Below, piece after piece: positions 769-62,267 of a stretch of 64,000 nucleotides of DNA. The notes below the pieces were generated by a model. It made no database searches, was not told where the DNA came from, and was given only the letters and a program-made list of their open reading frames with translations. The first letter of the stretch is position 1. Each line of letters begins with the position of its first letter. Both the position numbers and the translations under genes were made by a program. The stretch covers positions 1-64,000 of the IMG/VR virus record IMGVR_UViG_3300021478_000001; one strand, 5' to 3'. The stretch comes from a virus.

Positions 769-931
769 GATGATGCTCCTTTTCTAGCTCCAGATTGCGT
801 GCCATAGCACAGATGTGATCACAGCAATTCTGTACTGGTCTATGGATCATGGAGAAAGCTGGATGGTTCCTGGCTAGTTCCGAAATCTTTTCAGCTAAAT
901 CACGCAGGTCTTTGCTTTCTGGGGTGCTCAT
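761..931 (-). CDS. Hypothetical small helical protein (56 aa)
   Basis: Function unknown. It is predicted helical, with a C-x3-C pair (CCDHIC) and a His-rich C-terminal end (EHHHE), which could bind a metal. I choose the ATG at 931, which overlaps the polymerase stop by ATGA and has GGAG 8-9 nt upstream, over an ATG at 949 inside the polymerase gene. Confidence 0.6.
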   Translation of the reverse strand: MSTPESKDLRDLAEKISELARNHPAFSMIHRPVQNCCDHICAMARNLELEKEHHHE

Positions 932-2928
932 TCTTTTTTCTCCATCCAACTATCACCTATTTCTGCATCAACTTTCATAGGGAGAGCCAGCGGCACAGCA
1001 ATACGCATGATCTCGGCAATTTCTTGTGCTTGCTTTTCATTTGCGATGCTGAAGCATAACTCGTCATGTATTTGCAGCACCGGGCAATATCCGGCACGCC
1101 ACACGTCACGCATGGCTATCTTGGTCTGGCGCGCAGCGCCACCCTGTATCAAAGCATTCATCGCTTTGTTGGTACGACTGCGATGTAACTTCTGCTGATA
1201 CCATTTATTTTCTGGATCATGCACGCGGCGTTGCGCTTCATTCCAGCGGCAGTCTGCTTGATAGTCTGGATTATTATCCTTTTCGTATTTAGCCCGCAAC
1301 ACATTCCACCAGTCAAACCGTATTCGTGCACCATCCAACAGTACAATATAGCCGCGATCCTCTACTCTTTCCTTGCACTTGGTATAAAGCATCTTGACAA
1401 ATGGCAGACGCTCATCATACTGATTCATAATGCGTGCTGCGGCCTCTTTGCTTTGCCCTATCATCATGGCAAATTTATCAACACCAGCACCATAGGCTTT
1501 CGCGAAGTTGCAATCCTTTGCTGGCTTTCTTTCCAATCCTGTCATCTCGGCAACCATGGCATGAAAGTCAGTATTTGGATCTTCTTGATAGCGTTGCCTT
1601 GCCGCCGCCGCCCCGGATAGCTTTTGCAGATAAGCATAGTGCACCATGAGGCGGAATTCCTGCTGACTGTAATCAACACTCAGCCATCGTTCTCCATCTT
1701 CACCAATGAAGACACTGCGAATTTCTGCCATCTCTGGATCACGATGTGGTATCTGTTGCAATGGTGGATCAGCATAGCTGAATCTATAAGTGCGTGTGCC
1801 GCCACTACTGTCTTCATCATCGCCAGGACTTTCCCCGCGATACTGATTGATAGTTGGATGTATGCGTGAATCCTCTGTGCAGAAATCCATGAGATAACCT
1901 TTAACGAATTTCTCGGCGGCTTCTTCTCGGCTTTTGGCACGGGTAATTAATCGCGGCAACCAATGAGGATGTTTCTTCATCCACTTGGCTTCAAAGCTTC
2001 CACGAGGAGAACCATCGCGGTTAGGCTTATTGGTATATGGATAAGAAATTTGTTCAGCTTGGAAAACTCTTTCTAACCATTTGACACTGCGAATATCATC
2101 AATGCCAGTAGTCTTTCCTATTCTATCTGTCAGATCAACCAAAGCAACTTGACTTTGTTCCTTGAAGCGGTAATACAGTTGTTCACATTTGTCATAATCT
2201 ATGCAGATGCCACGCTGGCGCATGGCATGGACCATGGGAACCAATTCCATTTCTAGATCATATGCGGCTGATAGTTCCTCCTTTATTATGATCGGCCGCA
2301 AAGCATGCGCCAACGCGAGCGTGCCTAGCGCGTCAGCCTCACCATAGGTGCCAACATAACGCGCGGGCATCTGATAAATGTCTTTCTTAGGATCAAATCC
2401 CATTGCTTGCGCATAATCGCGCAGCACCTCCTCTTGTTTTCCCGGCACATCATAGGTCTTGCACAGAGTATCCAATCTGTAATTCAAACCTCCTTCATCA
2501 ATCATGTAGGCCATGCAAGAGGAGTCATCAATTTGTTGAGGCGGCGGCAAGCCTAGATCACTGCTTATCCAGCCTATATCATAGGCAGCATTGTGATAAA
2601 TGAAGCGAACTTTTTTCTGCAACAAGTGCCGCAGCCAACGCCGCACTTGGCCTCTATCAAAGTTGCTGCTCTCTGGATGTGTGATTGGAATATATATTGA
2701 ACGATAATCTTCTTCCTTCCAAGCAATAGCTATGCCACATATATGTCCCGCCTTGGTTGCCCATCCCGGTCCCTTGTTTTCTTTCAATCCTATATCCTGA
2801 GTTTCACAGTCCAGGGCAATTTCTGCAACACTTGTCAGTGCTGGTAGTTCCTTTGGTGCGATCCAAGTGCTGTTAGGCAGCACGAATGAGAATGGTTGCT
2901 GGATGCCACCTACGTTTTTCTTAAGCAT
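928..2928 (-). CDS. DNA polymerase I family A with 3'-5' exonuclease
   Basis: Replicative DNA polymerase, 666 aa. The N-terminal DnaQ-like proofreading domain keeps the acidic residues: D40/E42 (DCET), D117 (HNAAYD) and Y195-x3-D199. The polymerase domain has motif A at D419 (DYSQQEFRL), the O-helix motif with K471 and Y479-G480, and motif C at H621-D622-E623. There is no 5'-nuclease domain, as is usual for phage T7-like family A enzymes. The start at 2928 has AGGAGG 6 nt upstream. It sits next to the nucleotide-modification genes, so it would copy DNA containing an altered pyrimidine, if the pathway acts on dNTPs. Tyr at the O-helix position is expected to permit dideoxynucleotide use. Confidence 0.95.
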   Translation of the reverse strand: MLKKNVGGIQQPFSFVLPNSTWIAPKELPALTSVAEIALDCETQDIGLKENKGPGWATKAGHICGIAIAWKEEDYRSIYIPITHPESSNFDRGQVRRWLRHLLQKKVRFIYHNAAYDIGWISSDLGLPPPQQIDDSSCMAYMIDEGGLNYRLDTLCKTYDVPGKQEEVLRDYAQAMGFDPKKDIYQMPARYVGTYGEADALGTLALAHALRPIIIKEELSAAYDLEMELVPMVHAMRQRGICIDYDKCEQLYYRFKEQSQVALVDLTDRIGKTTGIDDIRSVKWLERVFQAEQISYPYTNKPNRDGSPRGSFEAKWMKKHPHWLPRLITRAKSREEAAEKFVKGYLMDFCTEDSRIHPTINQYRGESPGDDEDSSGGTRTYRFSYADPPLQQIPHRDPEMAEIRSVFIGEDGERWLSVDYSQQEFRLMVHYAYLQKLSGAAAARQRYQEDPNTDFHAMVAEMTGLERKPAKDCNFAKAYGAGVDKFAMMIGQSKEAAARIMNQYDERLPFVKMLYTKCKERVEDRGYIVLLDGARIRFDWWNVLRAKYEKDNNPDYQADCRWNEAQRRVHDPENKWYQQKLHRSRTNKAMNALIQGGAARQTKIAMRDVWRAGYCPVLQIHDELCFSIANEKQAQEIAEIMRIAVPLALPMKVDAEIGDSWMEKKE

Positions 2929-2937
2929 TCATGCCTC

Positions 2938-3423
2938 CTAATGTCGGCAGTCTGGGCAGTCATCTGCATCTGCATAACCATGCGGACATGGGACATTTGG
3001 GGCATTTTTAAGAATTTCATACGCGGGTTGTCCTATCAATTTTCCGCGCTCGATCCCATCTAATCCGGTATCATCGTCATCTTGTTGTGCGTGATGGCCA
3101 CCATCTTCTGCACTCTGTTTTTGACTTAAACGTGCACGATACTCTGCCTCTACCAGCAATAGATAACGACGTAGATCTTGAATTTCTGCAAGAGTTGTGC
3201 CATCTGCACCAGGAGTATCGTCTTCATTTATGGCTGTGAAAACATTGTAGCTGAACACTTCAACCATATTTTCTAAACGATCCCATTTTCTAGCGAGCAT
3301 CATGAAGGCACCGACTCCTCCACGCTTCTTCCAGCTTCCGCGATATGTTCCTTCTTTAATTTCTAGTATTGTCACATCATCAAGAGCTACTTGTTTCAGG
3401 TATTCCATATGCTTCATGTTCAT
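2938..3423 (-). CDS. DUF1599/Nmad1-like nucleotide-modification-associated protein
   Basis: 161 aa from the ATG at 3423, which overlaps the ThyA-like stop (ATGA) and has AAAGGAGAG upstream. The core residues around GSWKKRGGVGAFMMLARKWDR, followed by a helical segment with DLRRYLLL, resemble the DUF1599 / nucleotide-modification-associated domain 1 family seen in phages and related to MazG-like all-alpha pyrophosphatases. An acidic linker and a cysteine-rich tail (C-x8-9-C-x2-C) follow. It lies between the polymerase and the ThyA homologue, which fits a role in modified-nucleotide metabolism. The family call is from memory of the motif; the precise reaction is unknown. Confidence 0.6.
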   Translation of the reverse strand: MNMKHMEYLKQVALDDVTILEIKEGTYRGSWKKRGGVGAFMMLARKWDRLENMVEVFSYNVFTAINEDDTPGADGTTLAEIQDLRRYLLLVEAEYRARLSQKQSAEDGGHHAQQDDDDTGLDGIERGKLIGQPAYEILKNAPNVPCPHGYADADDCPDCRH

Positions 3424-4421
3424 TTCACTCTCCTTTGGATCCACTCTTTGCAAGCCATGCGCCAGTCTGGTGCTGCGATGTCGTCCGCACACAACAATGC
3501 TTCTTTATATTTCTTTTGCTTGAAAGAATGAAACGCCAGTAACGCAGGCGTGGCCACTGTTGAGAACCATAGGTTACGATAGCGACCAACTTTTTGCAGA
3601 TGAAATAATTCCCAATCAGACATGAAAGCATAAAGATCATCATCAATATCTTTAGGTTCAGTAAACATCTGCATGGCTTCGCTACTACCATCACTATAAC
3701 GATCATCTAGCAATAATTCAGGACCGGCTTGTCCCACCAATTTGTTGAACACATCCAAATAAGCGTGAGCATTGTTGCTTATCTGGTACATGACTCCGAC
3801 AGGTAGGTTACAACGTGATGCCAGATATTCTTGCAAGATGCTGAAGTGTACGGCGTTGGCACCATGCGCGCCCCATATCATGTCGTTAGACCGGCAACAT
3901 ACCGTCAGGTCTAATGCGCCATCATTGTTACGCACATAGGCGTGAGTGTTGCATGGTCGATCTTTCCAATCACCTAACAGATCATCACCATAGTCTCTTC
4001 GCACATCCCACATTTGCAACACACACTGCCGATCATGTGGATAATCTGTCAGTTTATCCACTATCACATTCAATTGATCAAAACCGAAAAAAGTACGCCA
4101 GCGACAACCATAAGCACCATGCAGCATGCCATCTTCTTCTGCGAATTGTTTGCTAAAATCCTTGATGAAATAATCCAATGGTCTTGCATCATAAAATCCA
4201 GACAGCATCCACAACGCTTCGAACATATGAAAAAATGGATTGGCATCACGAACAGGACTGAACAGCACCCGTTCCCATGGCCGCTTGGTGACGGTGCACA
4301 CCGGAACTGGACTTACTAATACTCTTCCGTTACGACTATCCTCAAACTCTGCAAAATCATTTAGATATTTGATTGTGACACTGAGTGCTTGGCATACGTT
4401 ACGAACCTCCTGGACGTGCAT
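3420..4421 (-). CDS. Thymidylate synthase family protein (candidate dUMP hydroxymethylase)
   Basis: 333 aa, ThyA fold. The catalytic Cys is C157 in RPCNTH. The substrate-binding segment is R177-S-N-D followed by GAHGAN, where classical ThyA has LGLPFN. The conserved His/Tyr pair that contacts the deoxyribose is in NNAHAY (H219, Y221). The altered Asn-loop and the neighbouring kinase and aGPT-Pplase-like gene favour a 5-hydroxymethylase making hm-dUMP over ordinary dTMP synthesis, but sequence alone cannot separate the two. The start at 4421 has AGGGAGG upstream. It overlaps the kinase gene by 23 nt. Confidence 0.85.
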   Translation of the reverse strand: MHVQEVRNVCQALSVTIKYLNDFAEFEDSRNGRVLVSPVPVCTVTKRPWERVLFSPVRDANPFFHMFEALWMLSGFYDARPLDYFIKDFSKQFAEEDGMLHGAYGCRWRTFFGFDQLNVIVDKLTDYPHDRQCVLQMWDVRRDYGDDLLGDWKDRPCNTHAYVRNNDGALDLTVCCRSNDMIWGAHGANAVHFSILQEYLASRCNLPVGVMYQISNNAHAYLDVFNKLVGQAGPELLLDDRYSDGSSEAMQMFTEPKDIDDDLYAFMSDWELFHLQKVGRYRNLWFSTVATPALLAFHSFKQKKYKEALLCADDIAAPDWRMACKEWIQRRVK

Positions 4422-5061
4422 CGTTTCCTCCCTGTTGCAACCAGTCGCGTATTGTTTGGAAGCTTCCCTGACGGCTGAGCAAGCGGCATTTTACACCTAT
4501 CGTCCGAAGTTTGACAAATTCTTTTTTACTCTTGTCATCCAGTGCGATGATGGTGTCTTGCTTTATGTTGTGGCCGCGGTCGTGTACGGCTTGTATGCAC
4601 TTGGTTATTGGATGGTCTATGAACACAACACGAACATCCAATCTAGCTTGATGCATGATCTTGATACGTTCTAGGCTGTCGTTGAAATTCTTGCCCTCAT
4701 ACAATACATCGGCGCCTAGCTCATGATGCTTGAGAACCAACTCATAAGCATAATTCAAGCTTGGCAATGTGTCAATACCGCCATTCTGGATTTCGTAGTG
4801 GCCGGGAACAAACAAGCGACGTGTGGTATCTCCTTTGGATCTAGGACATTCTGTTTCTTCGCTAGGTTTATAACCTTTTGGGAAGCTGACTGTACAGCTA
4901 CAGTCAGGATAAGAACAACTCCATGAGCATATGTAGCCCATGGGTTTTCGCTTGTTCACTTCCGGATAAGCTATCGCGATGCGCGTTGGATATAGATCCA
5001 TAACCTTGCGCACGATCGTGCTCTTGCCAGAACCATTTGTACCTCTGATATTCACAATCAT
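4399..5061 (-). CDS. P-loop kinase, candidate 5-hmdU DNA kinase
   Basis: 220 aa. The Walker A motif is at the very N-terminus (residues 7-15, GTNGSGKST). Two Cys-rich stretches follow at about residues 44-56 and 73. A hydrophobic strand ending in YEGKNF and a VVFIDHP strand follow in P-loop kinase order. Phage thymidine hypermodification pathways use a small P-loop kinase to phosphorylate 5-hydroxymethyluridine in DNA, and this gene sits directly beside a ThyA homologue. The substrate is inferred from that context; a generic nucleotide kinase is possible. Confidence 0.7.
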   Translation of the reverse strand: MIVNIRGTNGSGKSTIVRKVMDLYPTRIAIAYPEVNKRKPMGYICSWSCSYPDCSCTVSFPKGYKPSEETECPRSKGDTTRRLFVPGHYEIQNGGIDTLPSLNYAYELVLKHHELGADVLYEGKNFNDSLERIKIMHQARLDVRVVFIDHPITKCIQAVHDRGHNIKQDTIIALDDKSKKEFVKLRTIGVKCRLLSRQGSFQTIRDWLQQGGNDARPGGS

Positions 5062-5246
5062 TTTCTACCCTTCTTATAACAATCTGGACACTGATGTTTC
5101 CCAGCTATCATATGCCATATCAAATTCTTGAATGTTTTTATTGCTTGATCATAATCCGCTGTTCCAACAGTAAATTTCTTTGGACAAAAATCACAGTTAA
5201 AGACTGTGCGCCCACGAACCGCACCTTTTGTTTTAGTCACTGTCAT
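5058..5246 (-). CDS. Small zinc-ribbon protein (62 aa)
   Basis: Two C-x2-C knuckles (CDFC and CPDC) flank a helical segment containing TADYDQAI. The protein at 14490-14699 shares the same layout (F-x-CD-x-C, then TADF-x-EAI, then W, then C-x2-C), so the two are probably paralogues. I prefer the ATG at 5246 (GGAGG about 12 nt upstream) over an upstream TTG at 5288. The stop overlaps the kinase start (ATGA). Role unknown; nucleic-acid or protein binding is likely. Confidence 0.62.
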   Translation of the reverse strand: MTVTKTKGAVRGRTVFNCDFCPKKFTVGTADYDQAIKTFKNLIWHMIAGKHQCPDCYKKGRK

Positions 5247-5343
5247 TGTCACTCGGTTTCCTCCATGCGAAGTTTTCTCTTTTCCCAAGCTAATCGCGTT
5301 GAATATTACGATATCGTGAATGATTGATCCTTAAATGGCATTT

Positions 5344-6375
5344 TTATTTCTCCTTCCAAGGTATACGAAGAATCTTTTCTCTAGGGCCAGTTTTCATTGC
5401 TGCCACTATATCAGCTTTAGTTTGTTCATCAGGCTTGTGCAATTTACCTTTACCTAATAAATCTGGGAGCAAGCCTACTCTATAAGATCTATGATTACAT
5501 CCATCACATACCGGGATTGCTTTCCTTTCACCACGAATAAGCATTTCACGGGCAGCCCCTAAAGCATTTCCTTGCCAAATTTCCTCCATAGATTTTTCAT
5601 TTATGTTACCACAATTATATGTTGAATCCCAAGTGTTGCAACAAATCGGAACATTACCGTCCCAGTGTACAACGAATTGCCTGAATGGATGATGACACCG
5701 TTTCCCATCCATACTATGATCTGGTGCAAAAGCTAATCCAGCATAGTTGAAAACTTTACTATGATTACCAATCTTGCTTTCCTTGTCCTGTGCAGCAATA
5801 TCTCGTATTTGTACTAATGTTCTAGTTCCACGTGGCCGACGCATATGGGGATTACCTGCTTTGTCTTGTGGATATTTGTAAAATGTGAAACCTAATGGAT
5901 GTTTTTGTCCTGAAACCAACTCTCCTTTTTCTACAAGAGCGACTATTGTCTTCGGTACAAATTTCACAGTTTCATAATCATCTAGCCCAAGCACACTCAA
6001 TCCAGCTTGAAATAATCCTGTTATGTTCGCTATAGGTCCTGGTTTGCGTAATAGACCGCTTGCATTGGTAAGCATGGTGATGTGTGCTTTAGGAAGATGT
6101 TTGCGAACGATGCCGACCATACCGATGTAGTCTGGATGCATTGTAGGTTCGCCGCGCATGGCAAAACCAACACGGCAATTCCATTTCATTTCAGCTATCT
6201 GTTGCATCACTGTAGTGATGGTTTCTTTAGACATGAACTTATATCCATGTCCTGGTTTATCTTGGATAGCTGGCATAGCACAGAACGGACAATGGATGGA
6301 GCATCCAAGAGTCAGCTCAAGCGTGACGTTGAATGGATCTTCTTGTTTTCGATATGGTCGGCGCTTCATGTCCAT
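5344..6375 (-). CDS. Radical SAM enzyme with SPASM-like C-terminus
   Basis: 343 aa. The 4Fe-4S/SAM motif C25-x3-C29-x2-C32 is intact, followed by a GEP motif (R74-GEP) that binds SAM. The C-terminal part carries further cysteines (C227, C245, C246, C255, C290, C293) arranged like a SPASM/twitch auxiliary-cluster domain. Radical SAM isomerases take part in thymidine hypermodification in some phages, and this gene lies in the modification cluster, so base tailoring is plausible; a peptide substrate is the alternative. Either of two ATGs (6375 or 6369) could be used; AAAGGA is better spaced for 6369. Confidence 0.85.
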   Translation of the reverse strand: MDMKRRPYRKQEDPFNVTLELTLGCSIHCPFCAMPAIQDKPGHGYKFMSKETITTVMQQIAEMKWNCRVGFAMRGEPTMHPDYIGMVGIVRKHLPKAHITMLTNASGLLRKPGPIANITGLFQAGLSVLGLDDYETVKFVPKTIVALVEKGELVSGQKHPLGFTFYKYPQDKAGNPHMRRPRGTRTLVQIRDIAAQDKESKIGNHSKVFNYAGLAFAPDHSMDGKRCHHPFRQFVVHWDGNVPICCNTWDSTYNCGNINEKSMEEIWQGNALGAAREMLIRGERKAIPVCDGCNHRSYRVGLLPDLLGKGKLHKPDEQTKADIVAAMKTGPREKILRIPWKEK

Positions 6376-6383
6376 GGTTCCTT

Positions 6384-6944
6384 TCAGTAAGGTATGTCTT
6401 CAGTGGTTCTGTCCATAATAAACTTTTGTTTTGTTAAGTCAATAGTGAGTCGCATCACTTTGGCTTGATACATGGCGTTGAGAAGAGTTTGCATCTTAGA
6501 ATTTTGGAGATTGGCGTCCAAGTATTCACCAAGTAGAGTGTCTGGAGCATCATTGCGTACAATGTCTACTTCATATATGCTAGCATTAGAATTAATTGGT
6601 TCTTCATCTGATGTGGATCCATATTCAATAAAATTTCCTTCAATAGCATCCCAAGAAACTAAAACATAGTCAGCATCATCATGTGGTCGAATACCATGAT
6701 CTACTAATTCGGAGGCTTTATCTATAGGAATTAGTTTGTATTTGTTTTGTATTTGAAACATCACATGAGTTAGCTTTTCTTTAATCGCTTGTGCAAAAGA
6801 CTCAATGTTGACTGCTACGTTCATACTATAGATTTTAGAGATACAGTGTAATGCTGTTCCTTCTATTGTTTTATCTGGTTTGAAACAGATAATTTTACCA
6901 TGTCTACCAATCTTGCCGTTTGGTCTATAGAATCCCATTGACAT
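6384..6944 (-). CDS. Hypothetical protein (186 aa)
   Basis: Function unknown; no motif recognised. Mixed alpha/beta composition with an N-terminal Gly/Lys-rich segment. The start at 6944 has AGGGAGA about 7 nt upstream. It is transcribed with the radical SAM gene, 8 nt downstream, and follows the glycosyltransferase gene, so it may be an accessory of the modification cluster. Confidence 0.65.
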   Translation of the reverse strand: MSMGFYRPNGKIGRHGKIICFKPDKTIEGTALHCISKIYSMNVAVNIESFAQAIKEKLTHVMFQIQNKYKLIPIDKASELVDHGIRPHDDADYVLVSWDAIEGNFIEYGSTSDEEPINSNASIYEVDIVRNDAPDTLLGEYLDANLQNSKMQTLLNAMYQAKVMRLTIDLTKQKFIMDRTTEDIPY

Positions 6945-6993
6945 TTTAGTTCTCCCTAATTCAGGTTTGAGCGCAGATGTCGTTCAGAACCTA

Positions 6994-7938
6994 TTACATA
7001 GCACCCTCCAACTGTTTGTATGCTGCCTTGATCTTGCCGTGCAACCCATCACGCTCGGCCAAGGCGGTATTATACCACAACATCTGTTGCTCTTTCTTAA
7101 TCTTGCTGCGTTCCTCCAACATACGCGCCGCATGCACTGCATTGGACACCAGAAACTTTTCTGGATTGTATCCGGCGCGGCGCAACGTCATGCCTGCTTC
7201 TTCTTCAAACACCATGGGCAGGCCCGCACTCAGCATTTCGTAGAACCTGTTTGGTGGTGAATGGTATTCGTTGTGTGATTTGCGATCCTCCAAATAAAGA
7301 CCGAGGCCACGTTCACTTAGCCATTTGAGCAAGTCATCAGCAATACCTATGGCTTTGATTTTTTCATTGGCATAAGATTCAAATTTCTTGCTCGGGCTTG
7401 ATATCGTGATATTGCATCTTGGATCTTTGAAGAATTTGTCAAATGCCTTGATACGACCAACGCGATAACTGCCATAGTAGGCTATATCGTTCTCATGCAT
7501 GTTGCTAGGCAACGGCTTGGCCAGCATGCTCAGGCAGTTCCAGTTGATATAGGTGCTGAGTGGTGTTGCTTTGCTTTCCTTTTCACATGTCGTCCAGAAT
7601 TCTAAGTGCGACTTGCCCATCTTGCGCCGCGCCACGAACGCTTGACGGAACGGTGATTTTGCATCTCCATTGTTGATAGGAGGAACAATGGTGTAGTCTT
7701 GCTGGATCCAGACGATACGATTGGCTCCCAGGATTGCTAGACTTAGTTCTTTCAAATGTTTGCAAAAACCATAGGCACCATTGACTATGAACAAGAGGTC
7801 CAAGTTGGTGCAGTCAGCAATTTGGTCATCCCAGATCAACGGTTTCTGCAACTCATTAGACAAGAACCTTGCGACTTTCGTGCTAGCCACCATTGAGCGC
7901 TCAGTGGCCGGGATGAAGCTGAAGATCACTGTTTTCAT
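6994..7938 (-). CDS. GT-B-like glycosyltransferase, candidate DNA-base glycosyltransferase
   Basis: 314 aa. The C-terminal half has the nucleotide-sugar-binding pattern of GT-B enzymes: a Pro/Asn-rich turn, then RFYEMLSAGLPMVFEEE, where the Glu contacts the donor ribose in the family. The N-terminal half is a Rossmann-like domain beginning VIFSFIP. No signal peptide. Its position inside the modification cluster, far from the virion genes, favours a nucleic-acid acceptor over a cell-wall or virion acceptor, but that is inference. It overlaps the preceding gene by ATGA at 7935-7938. Confidence 0.72.
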   Translation of the reverse strand: MKTVIFSFIPATERSMVASTKVARFLSNELQKPLIWDDQIADCTNLDLLFIVNGAYGFCKHLKELSLAILGANRIVWIQQDYTIVPPINNGDAKSPFRQAFVARRKMGKSHLEFWTTCEKESKATPLSTYINWNCLSMLAKPLPSNMHENDIAYYGSYRVGRIKAFDKFFKDPRCNITISSPSKKFESYANEKIKAIGIADDLLKWLSERGLGLYLEDRKSHNEYHSPPNRFYEMLSAGLPMVFEEEAGMTLRRAGYNPEKFLVSNAVHAARMLEERSKIKKEQQMLWYNTALAERDGLHGKIKAAYKQLEGAM

Positions 7939-8270
7939 GCTGATTGGCCTTTCTTCATTTCTGCAATTGTAGCTGGATCATCTTTACGATGAAGGCCGCG
8001 GTCTGGATCACCAGCACCATGCCGAACACGGTAGGTGTCGAACTCATCGGCTAGTGCCATGAGTCGTATACAGAACATGGCATTGTATCCTAAGCCTATA
8101 CCAGCTTGCGCATAGGCCCGGAGTGCAGCTGGTGCCGCAGGATCACGTGCGCCTAGCACAAAGCTTGGCCACTCGACGACAGTGCCATCGCGACGCTTGA
8201 CTAGATACTTGCCTTCCGGCGTTGCTGGATTATCTCTGATTAGAGCAGTCAATGTTGGTTTCTCTTTCAT
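7935..8270 (-). CDS. Hypothetical phage protein (111 aa)
   Basis: Function unknown. Contains a segment of the type KYLVKRRDGTVVEWPSFVLG and then Ala-rich helices. I place the start at the ATG at 8270 because AAAGGAGGAAG lies just upstream, the best ribosome site in the area; an ATG at 8288 is not supported. The ribosome site lies inside the end of the preceding reading frame, so the genes overlap by about 40 nt. Confidence 0.68.
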   Translation of the reverse strand: MKEKPTLTALIRDNPATPEGKYLVKRRDGTVVEWPSFVLGARDPAAPAALRAYAQAGIGLGYNAMFCIRLMALADEFDTYRVRHGAGDPDRGLHRKDDPATIAEMKKGQSA

Positions 8271-8442
8271 TTCTTCCTCCTTTAGCACGTCGCCTACGTC
8301 TAGCTAAATTTTCACGCTCCCTCACACTCACCCGGTAGCGTATGTCTGCCTCGATAGCGCGAATTTCCGCGCATTCAAAGCAATACTTTCGAAACCTGAT
8401 GCGCTCTATTGGTGCGGCACACCGTTCACATTCACCTTTCAT
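8230..8442 (-). CDS. Small zinc-finger protein (70 aa)
   Basis: An N-terminal zinc knuckle of four cysteines (CERC and CFEC, 16 residues apart) is followed by a very basic helix rich in Arg. That is consistent with nucleic-acid binding. The start at 8442 overlaps the aGPT-Pplase-like stop by ATGA. The 3' end overlaps the next gene by 41 nt. Function unknown. Confidence 0.6.
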   Translation of the reverse strand: MKGECERCAAPIERIRFRKYCFECAEIRAIEADIRYRVSVRERENLARRRRRAKGGRNERETNIDCSNQR

Positions 8443-9359
8443 GTTGCATCTTCCCATCGGTACTTCTGTTTTGGCATCTTATCTTCGAAGTTGGCTTGAT
8501 GCCATTTCGAGTATTCGCACAAGCAATTTTGAATATCTTGGGCATGTGGTTGTGGCATCTGCTCGGCCTTGAACATCGGCAATAGTTTTTCTCGCAGCCT
8601 CCCTAGTTCTAGGCGGAATTCATCCTCTTTCCAAACATCCTTGCGATTGCGGCCGCAAACATAATTTAATCCTCTTTTTGAACCGGGTCCACTGGCAGCA
8701 AACGTATGCCAGTCTGATGCTTGACGAAGAGGCTCGTGGTATTTTATATCAGCAATCACTTGTGCGGTCATGAAGCTGCCAAATCCTTGCATGCTGCCAA
8801 GCAATATGTGAAATGAGTTGAGTGTGTCACCTGCCTTTGGTCGCAGTCTTTCTCGTGCTTTCCACAATGGTTCAATCACTTCATGTGCTAGATAAGCAAC
8901 TTTTGGAATATGAAAAGAGTCTTTTGTTAAATAATCCATGTTATCAACACTCGTTCCGGCAGTTGATACCATGTAGGCACCATTAAAGATCTTGCCGCCA
9001 GTCTTATAATAGCGACCAAGCAATCGTAGAAAAGTTGTTTTGTTGAACGGCACTGGATAGCCAACTATTTCTAAACTTTCAGGTAGATTGAGTATACGGG
9101 CAACGCACATGGCGAACCATAGTTCCGGATCATTGCTGTGCGGATTGCGCCAATTTTCTCTGATCCAAACAGTAACCTTGTCATCTTCGCGGTAGATGTT
9201 GCAGAAGCGATAACCACTAAGAATAGGATCATTCGTCCATGGTGGTCTATCACCGGCTTGGCGGCGCATGTAAATCATGTATCGTTCATGAGCGAACGCG
9301 AATATACGTTCTACTGGATCCTTGATGTTTTTGATCATACGCTCTTTAGGATCTTTCAT
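8439..9359 (-). CDS. aGPT-Pplase-like DNA-base modification enzyme
   Basis: 306 aa from the ATG at 9359 (GGAGG about 10 nt upstream; an ATG at 9407 lacks one). The N-terminal region matches my memory of alpha-glutamyl/putrescinyl-thymine pyrophosphorylases and the 5-hmdU DNA kinase helical domain: a helix ending in ERY-x4-RR, the block PPWTNDPIL (residues 39-47), then YRFCNIYREDDKVT (50-63). In phages such as phiW-14, SP10, ViI and M6 these enzymes replace the (pyro)phosphate on 5-hydroxymethyluracil in DNA with an amine or amino acid. The ThyA homologue and P-loop kinase needed upstream are encoded 3.5-5 kb downstream in the same operon. The nucleophile cannot be read from sequence. Confidence 0.78.
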   Translation of the reverse strand: MKDPKERMIKNIKDPVERIFAFAHERYMIYMRRQAGDRPPWTNDPILSGYRFCNIYREDDKVTVWIRENWRNPHSNDPELWFAMCVARILNLPESLEIVGYPVPFNKTTFLRLLGRYYKTGGKIFNGAYMVSTAGTSVDNMDYLTKDSFHIPKVAYLAHEVIEPLWKARERLRPKAGDTLNSFHILLGSMQGFGSFMTAQVIADIKYHEPLRQASDWHTFAASGPGSKRGLNYVCGRNRKDVWKEDEFRLELGRLREKLLPMFKAEQMPQPHAQDIQNCLCEYSKWHQANFEDKMPKQKYRWEDAT

Positions 9360-9588
9360 GTTTGTGTTCCTCCTCGACGATTTCTCCAGTTTCTCTATCA
9401 AACTCATAAGCTACACCTTGCACTATATCACCCGCTACTAACGGCTTGCCTTTGCGCTTTAGTTCTATGACTCGTACATCATTGATCGTGACAGGACCGG
9501 TGTTGGTTTCTTTCGCAACGAAACCAATCCAATTTGTACGCATCCCTTCGATGATAGTATCTAGATCATTTTTGTCTTTCGACATCAT
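9346..9588 (-). CDS. Hypothetical protein (80 aa)
   Basis: Function unknown; beta-rich with an acidic C-terminal tail (EIVEEEH). I choose the ATG at 9588, which overlaps the HD-domain stop (ATGA), over 9600. It overlaps the start of the aGPT-Pplase-like gene by 14 nt, so the two are probably translationally coupled. Confidence 0.58.
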   Translation of the reverse strand: MMSKDKNDLDTIIEGMRTNWIGFVAKETNTGPVTINDVRVIELKRKGKPLVAGDIVQGVAYEFDRETGEIVEEEHKHERS

Positions 9589-10094
9589 GGTGCGCCCCAT
9601 CGTGATAGATATTTGAACACAGCCATGCCATCCTCCGATGACAGACCTAACTTTTCCAGCGCGGCAAACGTGTCTGCTATGATAGGATGAGCGAACTGGT
9701 TTCCCATCAATAGTTCCACGCGGCCGAATTCATGCATGTCTATCAGGTCGCATGCCTTGGCGCGCAGCTTTTCTTGGCCAGAAATATCAGGAAACACTCC
9801 TCCCATATTCTTGACAGCTTCTGTTTCTAGTGTGTTTATCGTATGCTTCAGGATGTCATTGTTAGCTTTGACTGGGAATGGGAGATCACCAGTCACCAAT
9901 TCACCGGCGTCGTGCCAGATAAAGTAAGTAGTAATGTAGGCGTTCGGTGGTCCCCAGATTTCATCCCAGATACGCAAGCATTGCCAAGTGTGTTCACCTA
10001 CAGTTTGACGTTGATGCGTCATCCAAGTGTGGTAACGCATAACGCTTCCGGCATAGCGAGGATTGTGCAGCACATCGTTGCGTTTCAAGTTCAT
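9585..10094 (-). CDS. HD-domain phosphohydrolase, YfbR-like 5'-nucleotidase
   Basis: 169 aa. HD metal-binding residues are visible: H35 (GEHTW), H61-D62 with E65 (WHDAGE), followed by TGD-x-P-x-P-x-K, the arrangement of YfbR-type 5'-deoxynucleotidases. Such enzymes dephosphorylate dNMPs and tune nucleotide pools, which fits a phage altering its pyrimidines. I place the start at the ATG at 10094 (GAGG upstream) and not 10133. A distal acidic residue (D in LIDMHEFG) completes the site. Confidence 0.82.
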   Translation of the reverse strand: MNLKRNDVLHNPRYAGSVMRYHTWMTHQRQTVGEHTWQCLRIWDEIWGPPNAYITTYFIWHDAGELVTGDLPFPVKANNDILKHTINTLETEAVKNMGGVFPDISGQEKLRAKACDLIDMHEFGRVELLMGNQFAHPIIADTFAALEKLGLSSEDGMAVFKYLSRWGAP

Positions 10095-10104
10095 ATGGGC
10101 GCCT

Positions 10105-10248
10105 CTACATTTTATGAGATGCAACAGCAACAATGCAACCAGCTAGTCCCAGCGAAACGAAAACAGCCCAAGCGTCTTGCCACCAGAACCAAAGAAATAG
10201 CAAGCAGATGCCAAGTCCAAAATGGAATAAGCCAAGAAATAATTTCAC
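10105..10248 (-). CDS. Small membrane protein, GTG start (47 aa)
   Basis: Found by reading the minus strand between its neighbours. A GTG at 10246-10248 is preceded by GAGGT 6-7 nt upstream, giving a 47-residue protein with two hydrophobic stretches (about residues 3-23 and 27-43) separated by a polar turn, ending in HKM. Likely an inner-membrane protein. No function can be assigned. Confidence 0.55.
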   Translation of the reverse strand: MKLFLGLFHFGLGICLLFLWFWWQDAWAVFVSLGLAGCIVAVASHKM

Positions 10249-59118: not shown

Positions 59119-60627
59119 ATGACAGTTAAGGATATAAGTGTAATTACAACTGCACCTCTGGCGGTAGTTTACACTGCGCCTTTTGCGCCGCCTGGACCTG
59201 TGATCGCTGGGACCAGCAATAGCACTGTCTCCATTCAGATGGGGCCAGCTTCGTTTGTGATGAATGAATTTCATCTAGGCTTCCTTGATGGTGCTAGGTT
59301 AAGAGCGACTGCTGGAAGCAATTTGTTTGTTGAAGGTATTGTCACCAGCTATGACGAGCCTGATCTAGTTATCAATGTTGATTTTTTAATGGGAGTAGGA
59401 TCATTTCCAGCATGGAATATCAATGTTGTAGGTTATCCTGGACAGACAGGCTCGGCGGGACCACAAGGTCCGCAGGGTGTTCCTGGCACTCCTGGCGGTG
59501 CGACTGGACCTACAGGTCCAACTGGACCGGCCGGTCCACAAGGTCTTAATGGTGCAATCGGACCTATTGGTCCATCTGGCCCTACTGGTCTTGTTGGTGC
59601 GACTGGTCCACAAGGTGTAGATGGTTCTCCTGGTGGTCCTGGTCCTCCTGGCACTCCTGGCGGAGCTCAAGGAGTTGCTGGTCCAACTGGTCCTGCCGGT
59701 GCTATTGGCGCGACTGGTCCGCAAGGTTCACAAGGCCCAAGTGGTCCTACTGGACCGAGTGGTCCTATTGGTACAACAGGACCGTTCGGTCTTCAAGGAC
59801 CAACAGGAATGACTGGTCCACAAGGTATTCAAGGAGTGACTGGACCATCAGGTCCAGCTACAGGAGCAACTGGACCAACTGGACCTGTGGGAACAACAGG
59901 TCCGCAAGGACCGCAAGGCGCAGCGGGTACTCCTGGCACCAGTGGTATACCAGGAACGAACGGTCAGGGATTCAAGGCGTATTGGGCCGGAACGATCACG
60001 CCGACTGACGGTGTCAATCCAAGCAGCGTTGATAAAGTCAATTACGTTGCTACATGGGCAAGTCCGCATGGTTATGTCACTGGTCAGTTTGGTGTAATCA
60101 TTGGCACGCCTCCAAGTGGCTTATCTGTTAATACGGGATTATACGTTAGAGCACTGAGCCCGACTACGCTTGCATTCTACAACGTGCAGAGTGATGCCTA
60201 TGCTGATACTAATCGTGTGGCAATCACTGGTACGGCAGTAACTTGGCATATACGTCAGTGGGTTCTTACTCCAGCTCTCAGTGTTGGTTTCGACCCTGTT
60301 CAGGCAATTGGTGCTCAACAAGGTACCGGCAAGATTTATCCTGAACTGAATTTGACAAATCCGCTGACAACACTCAACGCTATCACTATCATAGGTCGTG
60401 TCAACGGTCTTGCTGCCAATGATGGCTCCAAGCAATCATATTGGATTCCTGGAAATGCTCCGACAATCGTCACGACCACCTTAATCCGTTTTGACAACAA
60501 CAATTGGGTCGTTAGTCCCAGCTTGTATGTGCCATCTCAAACTGGTGGCTATCCATCTCAAGGTATTGGTACTCATAATCTTCAAGGCAATACCCCAATT
60601 TGGATGGAGTTCACAGTCCTAGGTTAA
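59119..60627 (+). CDS. Collagen-like tail fibre B, paralogue of A (502 aa)
   Basis: Same architecture and same length as the preceding gene. N-terminal: [21 protein letters not shown] and [16 protein letters not shown]-terminal: [17 protein letters not shown], then ASPHG-x3-TGQFG, and PELNL-x3-L then [19 protein letters not shown]-x-WV, shared with fibre A. The collagen section is Gln-richer (GPQGPQG). Tandem duplication followed by divergence is the simplest explanation. GAGG precedes the ATG. Confidence 0.8.
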
Positions 60628-60874: not shown

Positions 60875-61080
60875 GCAACGGCACAGTAGGCGGCACTGAT
60901 TGGTTGAACAGTCAACGTGATGCTGTTTATGTGCCTAATCGAGAACTGACTGTGCAGCGGCGTCTGCAGATAACTTACCGAATCATGCCAGTATATCTAT
61001 CACTGACGCCGCCAGGAGCACCACCTTCACCATTCCAATCGCCATTCCAACCTCCATTTTTGATAGGAACTGATCAATGA
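60871..61080 (+). CDS. Hypothetical protein (69 aa)
   Basis: ATGA overlap with the upstream stop defines the start at 60871; no ribosome site of its own. A Pro/Phe-rich C-terminal tail (PPGAPPSPFQSPFQPPF) is notable, suggesting an extended binding segment. Function unknown. Confidence 0.52.
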   Translation: MSNGTVGGTDWLNSQRDAVYVPNRELTVQRRLQITYRIMPVYLSLTPPGAPPSPFQSPFQPPFLIGTDQ

Positions 61081-62267
61081 GGTTTCACGCGCTTGGCATT
61101 CCGCACACTGCAACTAACAAGTGGCACGCCAGTTGTGCTTACACGCAGAAGGTAAGGCGACTATGTGCTATGCTCAAATCACTTGGTCATACTGTCTATC
61201 ACTATGGCAACGAAGAAAGTGAAGTTGAATGTGATGAACATATATCTGTGACAACGCGTGAAGATCTGATCAAGCAGTATGGTGATGGAGTTGGCAGAAC
61301 ACAAGAATACAAGTTTGACATCAAGGATCCGGTCTACATTAAATTTTACATCAACACCATCAATGCTATTAATGAACGCAAGCAAGCAAATGATTTCTTG
61401 CTGTGCTTCTGGGGTGTTGGTCATAAAGCTATTGCCGAACTTATGACCGATATGATTGTCGTAGAACCGGGTATCGGCTATGGTGGCACATTTGCCCGCT
61501 GGAAAATCTTTGAATCCTATGCCATGTTGCACGCCTGGAGCGGGATAGAAGTGGTAAACGTAGCTGGCAAGGTTGACTGGTACAATGTAGTGATCCCAAA
61601 CTATTTTGATCCTGCGGATTTTACCTTTAGCAGTGATAAGAAAAATTATCTGTTGTTCCTTGGTCGTATGGGAGAAGCTAAAGGATTAGATATTGCTGCT
61701 GAAGCTGCCAAGGCAACCAACACTAGATTGATTGCAGCCGGAGCAGCATCTGGTGAATATAAAGATGTTGAGTTTGTAGGTTTCGCAGACTGGGAAACTC
61801 GTCGTGGATTATTGGCTGGTGCCAAGGCGCTGATAGCACCGAGTCGTTTCATAGAGCCATTCTGTGGTGTGCTGATAGAGGCTGCTCTTTCTGGGACACC
61901 AGTGATAACTATTGATTGGGGCGCGGCCACTGAAACAGTATTGCACGGGATAACCGGATATCGCTGCAGAACCTTTGACCATTTCACATGGGCGGTCAAT
62001 AACATTCATCACATCAAGCCACAAGCTTGCTTGGATTGGGCGCAAGCCAATTATTCCATGGACCGTGTGCGTTTTATGTATGAAGAATATTTCAACACGG
62101 TGATGGACGTGTATGTTGGCAAAGGATGGTATCAACGGCATCCCAACCGAACAGAACTAGATTGGTTAAGCAAAGAGTTCCCCAATGACAAACTGTCGTT
62201 TTTGCGGCCAAGTCAGAAAGACCATCGGCCGCGTCTATTCCAAAATCATAAAGCCGAGGCGATCTAA
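61077..62267 (+). CDS. GT4-like (GT-B) glycosyltransferase (396 aa)
   Basis: The C-terminal donor-binding half carries FLGRMGEAKGLDIAAEAA, then APSRFIEPFCGVLIEAALSGTPVI, then TGYRC, the pattern of GT4 retaining glycosyltransferases with the E-x7-E motif. The N-terminal Rossmann half is also present. Placed between fibre genes and lysis genes, it probably decorates virion proteins (for example the Thr-rich collagen repeats) or host surface glycans, rather than DNA. Confidence 0.85.
   Translation: MRFHALGIPHTATNKWHASCAYTQKVRRLCAMLKSLGHTVYHYGNEESEVECDEHISVTTREDLIKQYGDGVGRTQEYKFDIKDPVYIKFYINTINAINERKQANDFLLCFWGVGHKAIAELMTDMIVVEPGIGYGGTFARWKIFESYAMLHAWSGIEVVNVAGKVDWYNVVIPNYFDPADFTFSSDKKNYLLFLGRMGEAKGLDIAAEAAKATNTRLIAAGAASGEYKDVEFVGFADWETRRGLLAGAKALIAPSRFIEPFCGVLIEAALSGTPVITIDWGAATETVLHGITGYRCRTFDHFTWAVNNIHHIKPQACLDWAQANYSMDRVRFMYEEYFNTVMDVYVGKGWYQRHPNRTELDWLSKEFPNDKLSFLRPSQKDHRPRLFQNHKAEAI

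Follow-up and report, generated by a model that had tools for sequence, protein, structure and literature searches.

Introduction

Thymidine hypermodification that starts from 5-hydroxymethyl-deoxyuridine (5-hmdU) leads, in phages M6, PaMx11 and ViI, to an amino acid installed by PF18724, the Pfam family 'Amino acid:DNA transferase' to which PaMx11 gp46, M6 gp51 and the Pam3 protein 'aGPT-Pplase2' belong. In Bacillus phage SP-15 the thymine is a glycosylated, phosphoglucuronated dihydroxypentyluracil (PMC5977210), and in Yersinia phage YerA41 the thymidine modification amounts to about 1 kDa and is oligosaccharide-like (PMC9023294). We analysed bases 1-64,000 (the whole stretch, hereafter the window) of the 86,933-base (86.9 kb) virus record IMGVR_UViG_3300021478_000001, from an uncultivated phage, in which a modification operon on the minus strand, reading from about 10.1 kb to 0.9 kb, joins 5-hmdU genes to those of a glycosyltransferase (GT) and a radical S-adenosylmethionine (SAM) enzyme. 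It seems to us reasonably probable that this operon encodes a branch of thymidine hypermodification in which 5-hmdU in DNA receives a sugar (a glycosyl branch) and the sugar is then oxidised. With somewhat less than even confidence, we also propose that the branch is widespread and previously undescribed, with DNA GTs of three families replacing the transferase and Twitch radical chemistry acting on a DNA-linked sugar, possibly via a phosphodiester.

Probable 5-hmdU genes of the operon

All the genes that an earlier note on this DNA had named were found in place on the minus strand, to which every coordinate of the operon refers, in the order HD protein, small open reading frame (ORF), PF18723 protein, 117-residue protein, GT-B glycosyltransferase, 186-residue protein, radical SAM enzyme, kinase, ThyA homologue, Nmad1-like protein and polymerase. 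The ThyA homologue (3420..4421) has the residues described there, namely C157 (in RPCNT), RSND beginning at R177 and GAHGAN at positions 184 to 189; it matches Thymidylat_synt (PF00303; 5.6e-19) and phrog_5131 (1e-91) and is 42% identical to M6 gp58. The top solved relative of its profile is the CMP hydroxymethylase 5b6d (1.9e-30), and the protein is a predicted deoxyuridylate 5-hydroxymethyltransferase, that is, a maker of 5-hydroxymethyl-dUMP. The P-loop kinase (4399..5061) does carry the Walker A motif GTNGSGKST, and it resembles 5-hmdU DNA kinases, with 28% identity to PaMx11 gp49 over 95% of its length. Against PF18748 (5-hmdU DNA kinase), which M6 gp54 matches, it scores 16 bits for a cut-off of 27, and PaMx11 gp49 likewise stays below the cut-off. 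The PaMx11 and M6 kinases (L007:6218-6787 and L008:5686-6249; L numbers designate sampled loci) are annotated 'terminase small subunit', a label that is likely a misannotation given the match of M6 gp54 to PF18748; the like-named phrog_800 matches the window kinase.

The third 5-hmdU gene encodes a PF18723 protein (HMUDK_hel, formerly aGPT-Pplase1; 8439..9359; PF18723 8.4e-40), whose ORF spans 8439-9407 and whose likely start at 9359 is preceded by GAGGAGG. It is 31-33% identical to proteins of the M6/YuA group, and the family, which Pfam names '5-hmdU DNA kinase, helical domain', also holds M6 gp55, PaMx11 gp50 and the Pam3 protein 'aGPT-Pplase1'. Its profile had no matches in the PDB, and hhalign gave no significant relation between PF18723 and PF18724, which look alike by eye. 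The earlier note had placed the locus among those of 5-hmdU thymidine hypermodification, and the relatives of the ThyA, kinase and PF18723 proteins in M6 and PaMx11 bear this out. It had also expected an aGPT-Pplase-like protein to substitute the base with an amine or amino acid, and this finds no support here: the protein is the PF18723 member, and the transferase belongs to a different family, PF18724, which is absent. Pseudomonas phages PaMx11 and M6 and Pseudanabaena phage Pam3 have clusters that largely agree with this one in gene content and order, which excludes a chance grouping.

The glycosyltransferase

The GT (6994..7938) has no sequence-level match in Pfam nor, by profile, in the PDB, and its assignment to the GT-B fold was confirmed by structure prediction. 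An AlphaFold model built on an alignment of 16 relatives reached a predicted local distance difference test score (pLDDT) of 92.5, and its best PDB match is T4 beta-glucosyltransferase (BGT; 1c3j, E 2.7e-10; 1j39, TMq 0.69). Lower among the fold matches stands T4 alpha-glucosyltransferase (AGT), including complexes with DNA containing hydroxymethyluracil (HMU). In an hhalign alignment against a single T4 BGT sequence, of low probability (E 0.0054), T4 residues R191, R195, R269 and E272, which contact uridine diphosphate (UDP), align with R159, R162, R231 and E234, and these four are invariant across the window GT family. We therefore regard the protein as a predicted DNA glycosyltransferase that would use a UDP-sugar. 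Its only cellular homologue in pattern-based, non-exhaustive scans of genome contigs was one remote match of 85 residues.

T4 BGT can glucosylate 5hmU in DNA, in a duplex only where the 5hmU is mispaired (PMC4111573). This need for a mispair raises the idea that PF18723 helps to expose hmdU; the family may be such a helper or a partner of the kinase. It occurs in every branch that we sampled, kinase-less clusters included (a biased figure, as the sampling was seeded with PF18723), and its retention in those clusters implies that the Pfam name may not cover its whole role.

Mutual exclusion of the glycosyltransferase and PF18724

PF18724 was not found when its profile was run without filters against the window and the remainder of the record, nor when the entire 86.9 kb was searched by family. 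To place this absence, IMG/VR was scanned with the PF18723, GT and radical SAM proteins and their alignments, reference phages were added, and 115 PF18723 loci were grouped at 90% identity into 81 clusters. PF18724 is present in 11 of these clusters and a GT in 53; none has both and 17 have neither, an exclusion with a Fisher p of 1.8e-6. Searches of entire records agree: PF18724 was found in none of 46 other GT-bearing records, among them the 111 kb Escherichia phage EP_H11 and 14 contigs with a length of 45 kb or more, while the positive controls M6, PaMx11 and ViI all scored. In the reverse direction, the 12 PF18724 records yielded no BGT-like GT, and no match to a TET-associated glycosyltransferase (TAGT) in them passed the cut-off. 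On the PF18723 tree, four supported independent pairs differ in PF18724, and the GT mostly changes in the opposite way and never in the same way. Because PF18724 and the GT never co-occur and the whole-contig searches agree, we place the GT where the amino-acid transferase would be; it appears to stand in place of that enzyme and not to be an addition to the amino-acid pathway.

The GT that fills this position is not always of the window type. TAGT-type GTs (PF20691) replace the BGT-like GT in 28 of the 81 clusters and adjoin PF18723 and ThyA genes in, for example, L053, L054, L059 and L102. A third, GT4-like group gave nothing useful when its members were compared with the PDB and PHROGs. The combination with a GT had been put forward as uncharacterised, and we indeed found no description of it in the accessible literature; it is far from unique, given the 53 GT clusters. 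In Escherichia phage EP_H11 (L012, 6301-12616), a largely unannotated cassette holds PIG-L, GT-B, PF18723, kinase, ThyA and HD genes, and the position of the PIG-L deacetylase beside the GT suggests a hexosamine.

The 17 clusters with neither GT nor PF18724 (e.g., L064, L071, L063 and L092) may hold a third branch or transferases that escaped detection. Ten of them keep the kinase.

The radical SAM enzyme

The radical SAM protein (5344..6375) matches Radical_SAM (PF04055) and SPASM (PF13186), as its earlier label implied; it has only one auxiliary cluster and is therefore a Twitch, not a full SPASM, enzyme. BtrN, a Twitch dehydrogenase from the butirosin biosynthetic route, is the top solved relative of its family profile (2.4e-19); the alignment spans both domains and pairs every one of the seven cluster cysteines, three in the radical SAM motif CX3CX2C and four in the auxiliary cluster. 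The predicted fold points the same way, with BtrN (4m7t) at 1.9e-13 and the next non-BtrN match at 1e-6. BtrN oxidises the alcohol of an aminocyclitol in a two-electron reaction (PMC9012708). By analogy, the window enzyme is predicted to oxidise, or otherwise radically tailor, the transferred sugar, and the reaction on a DNA-linked sugar would probably be oxidation of an alcohol to a keto-sugar. We considered and rejected the identity of an M6-type radical SAM isomerase, as profile similarity to the M6/Pam3 'photolyase'-type protein was nil beyond the cysteine motif; a tblastn search gave no matches in 50,697 phage records. No cellular homologues were found in pattern-based, non-exhaustive scans of genome contigs.

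Proposed pathway

We propose that the ThyA homologue would make 5-hydroxymethyl-dUMP, as the evidence at family level suggests, and that this nucleotide would then be built into phage DNA. Judging from structure and co-occurrence, the T4-BGT-like GT would next move the sugar of a UDP-sugar onto the hydroxymethyl group; as the kinase is kept, a variant of this step is conceivable in which the sugar sits on 5-phosphomethyl-dU as a phosphodiester. Finally, the BtrN-like Twitch enzyme would oxidise an alcohol of the transferred sugar. The modification would likely protect phage DNA from host nucleases.

Alternative explanations

Among the competing explanations, the one that survives best concerns the last step only: the substrate of the radical SAM enzyme could be the hmdU base or the free UDP-sugar and not a sugar borne by DNA, which we hold to be possible and somewhat less probable than a role on DNA-borne sugar. 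BtrN itself works on a free small molecule, and its R152 is unconserved here. The distribution of the enzyme bears on the question from the other side. It is found in 18 PF18723 clusters and a GT lies nearby in all 18 (nine BGT-like, five TAGT, three GT4-like and one with both), so that it never occurs without a GT, whereas 35 clusters have a GT and lack the enzyme (Fisher 1.7e-4, or 0.0099 when the loci are restricted to those retrieved by PF18723 alone). A strict rule by which the enzyme would occur only with a BGT-like GT, true of the first loci, failed in the wider sample, in which the broader rule held that it occurs only where some GT is present. This dependence disfavours the bare base and leaves donor and product undistinguished; that the enzyme stays constant while its GT partner switches family indicates sugar as its target.

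Rather unlikely, in our estimate, is a kinase-dependent form of the proposed pathway, in which hmdU is phosphorylated first and the GT adds the sugar to the phosphate, giving a sugar phosphodiester reminiscent of SP-15. The kinase is present in all 11 PF18724 clusters and is retained in 12 of the 20 clusters with a BGT-like GT (the window type) and in EP_H11, where PF18724 is gone, and a phosphodiester-linked glucuronolactone is reported on SP-15 DNA (PMC5977210). On the other hand, the kinase was undetected in the other 8 BGT-like clusters and in all 33 TAGT/GT4 clusters, so a phosphate is not generally needed, and the acceptor of T4 BGT is a hydroxyl. Near the kinase-negative GT clusters there was no small ORF with a Walker A motif, and whole-contig searches agree. 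Kinase and GT change in opposite ways in seven of ten supported independent pairs, and no pair shows them changing together (median p 0.016). As the GT can evidently do without the kinase in these loci, direct glycosylation of hmdU is favoured, and the kinase-less GT loci argue that it is the usual chemistry.

That an amino acid or amine is put on hmdU as in M6, PaMx11 and ViI, with the GT and the radical SAM enzyme decorating it further, is improbable. The ThyA, kinase and PF18723 proteins are common to that group, and the record carries no statement of genome completeness. The transferase, however, is lacking from the 86.9 kb of this record and from the 46 other GT records, its co-occurrence with a GT is zero, and the radical SAM enzyme is by profile unlike the 'photolyase'-type of M6 and Pam3; the absence of PF18724 and its failure to appear alongside a GT led us to reject the amino-acid model as the principal reading.

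Least of all do we expect that the GT and the radical SAM enzyme act on a target other than DNA, such as a virion protein or the host surface, with their place in the operon incidental: radical SAM/SPASM and GT-B enzymes are frequent in surface polysaccharide clusters and a second GT (61077-62267) lies in the tail region of this genome, but the operon GT accompanies ThyA, PF18723 and the kinase in unrelated phages including EP_H11, excludes PF18724 and folds like the T4 DNA glucosyltransferases. The tail-region GT (plus strand; Glycos_transf_1 1.3e-15) follows a collagen-repeat protein (59119-60627, plus strand) and is probably unrelated to DNA modification.

Several observations weigh against the glycosyl branch or its last step. 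The pathway is a prediction from gene content and structure models. The window lineage retains a kinase that plain glycosylation does not need, and 17 of the 81 PF18723 clusters have neither a GT nor PF18724. Many of the sampled contigs are fragments. With phylogeny controlled, the relation of PF18724 to the GT (four pairs, too few) and that of the radical SAM enzyme to the GT are both consistent and non-significant. The 18 of 18 figure is partly circular, as the TAGT and GT4-like families were first noticed, and then sought, beside the radical SAM gene, and database support for the GT4-like group comes via L062 alone (6e-5, below the cut-off). The radical SAM model has a pLDDT of only 70.6, and BtrN R152, a substrate-pocket residue, aligns with a tyrosine, from which it follows that the substrate probably differs from that of BtrN.

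Other genes of the operon and the record

The remaining genes of the operon surround those discussed above. At its upstream end are a YfbR-like HD 5'-deoxynucleotidase (9585..10133; PF12917 1e-8), which accompanies ThyA in relatives and has homologues in PaMx11, M6, Pam3 and GT loci, and a small ORF (9346..9600) that precedes the PF18723 gene and matched near-identical contigs only. A small protein of 117 residues without an assigned family (7935..8288), for which the Pfam search was empty, overlaps with its 3' end the start of the GT gene by 4 bases. Between the GT and radical SAM genes lies a protein of 186 residues, also without an assigned family (6384..6944), for which Pfam and NCBIfam searches gave no matches; its identity as Nmad5 was rejected, as it is not similar to M6 gp56 (a weak test). 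A gap of 8 bases separates the start of the radical SAM gene from its neighbour, and the ThyA gene overlaps its upstream neighbour. Downstream, the gene of a Nmad1-like, nucleotide-modification-associated protein (2938..3423) starts at 3423, with a Shine-Dalgarno sequence, and overlaps the ThyA stop. The one basis for its earlier label of DUF1599/Nmad1 is an identity of 47% over 113 residues to the Pam3 'nucleotide modification' protein (Pam3_54); searches with Pfam and NCBIfam models gave no matches. The operon ends with the gene of a family A DNA polymerase (928..2928; PF00476 1e-47).

Other candidate tailoring genes occur in the sampled loci. In L020, L026 and L045/L046 the gene immediately upstream of the GT encodes a class I methyltransferase. 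At about 81.0-81.7 kb of the window record (L010:17040-17714) there is another, 47% identical to that of L020, which may methylate the sugar or the base. An NAD-dependent sugar epimerase (L062:10330-11331; PF01370 7e-56) lies near a cassette of GT4-like, radical SAM and PF18723 genes. Elsewhere, the window encodes a NusG-like transcription factor of the phage (20956-21513, plus strand; PF02357 1e-8) and a weak, probably spurious match to cytochrome P450 (17562-18191, minus strand; E 0.0013, below the cut-off), and an IS110-type transposase (PF02371 8e-5) is found at L010:8168-9124, in the phage record.

Comparison with known systems

If the glycosyl branch is real, thymidine hypermodification would have two alternative endings, amino acids and sugars, selected by gene exchange, and in the viral loci sampled the sugar ending would be the commoner. 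To our knowledge, a radical SAM enzyme acting on a DNA-attached sugar would represent a new substrate class. The reading also predicts T4-BGT-like enzymes that act on hydroxymethyl-uracil DNA. If real, the branch would offer new tools for labelling DNA, and it may explain the nuclease resistance of many uncultivated phages.

The locus has in common with M6, PaMx11 and ViI PF18723 and a P-loop protein that here resembles a 5-hmdU DNA kinase, and with M6 and PaMx11 also the ThyA-type hydroxymethylase, the HD protein and the polymerase, in the same order. Unlike these phages, the window lacks PF18724 and the 'photolyase'-type radical SAM protein, and has the BGT-like GT and the BtrN-like enzyme. 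The GT shares with T4 BGT the fold, the UDP-contact residues, the setting of phage DNA modification and a gene beside a ThyA-family hydroxymethylase; it differs in sequence (about 14% identity) and in its predicted acceptor, which would be hydroxymethyl-dU or its phosphate and not the hydroxymethyl-dC of T4. TAGT (PF20691), named from TET systems, is found in these loci with ThyA and PF18723. The radical SAM enzyme is like BtrN in both domains, in all seven cluster cysteines and as its best fold match, and unlike it in the replacement of R152 by tyrosine and in a predicted DNA-linked sugar substrate as against 2-deoxy-scyllo-inosamine. With YerA41, by description, the likeness is a sugar-like thymidine substituent and several GT genes (PMC9023294). 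SP-15 resembles the proposed system in bearing a sugar on a hypermodified thymine and in encoding an hmdU synthase and GTs (PMC5977210), and is set apart, by description, by its side chain and by an account whose excerpted part makes no mention of PF18723 or of a BtrN-like enzyme.

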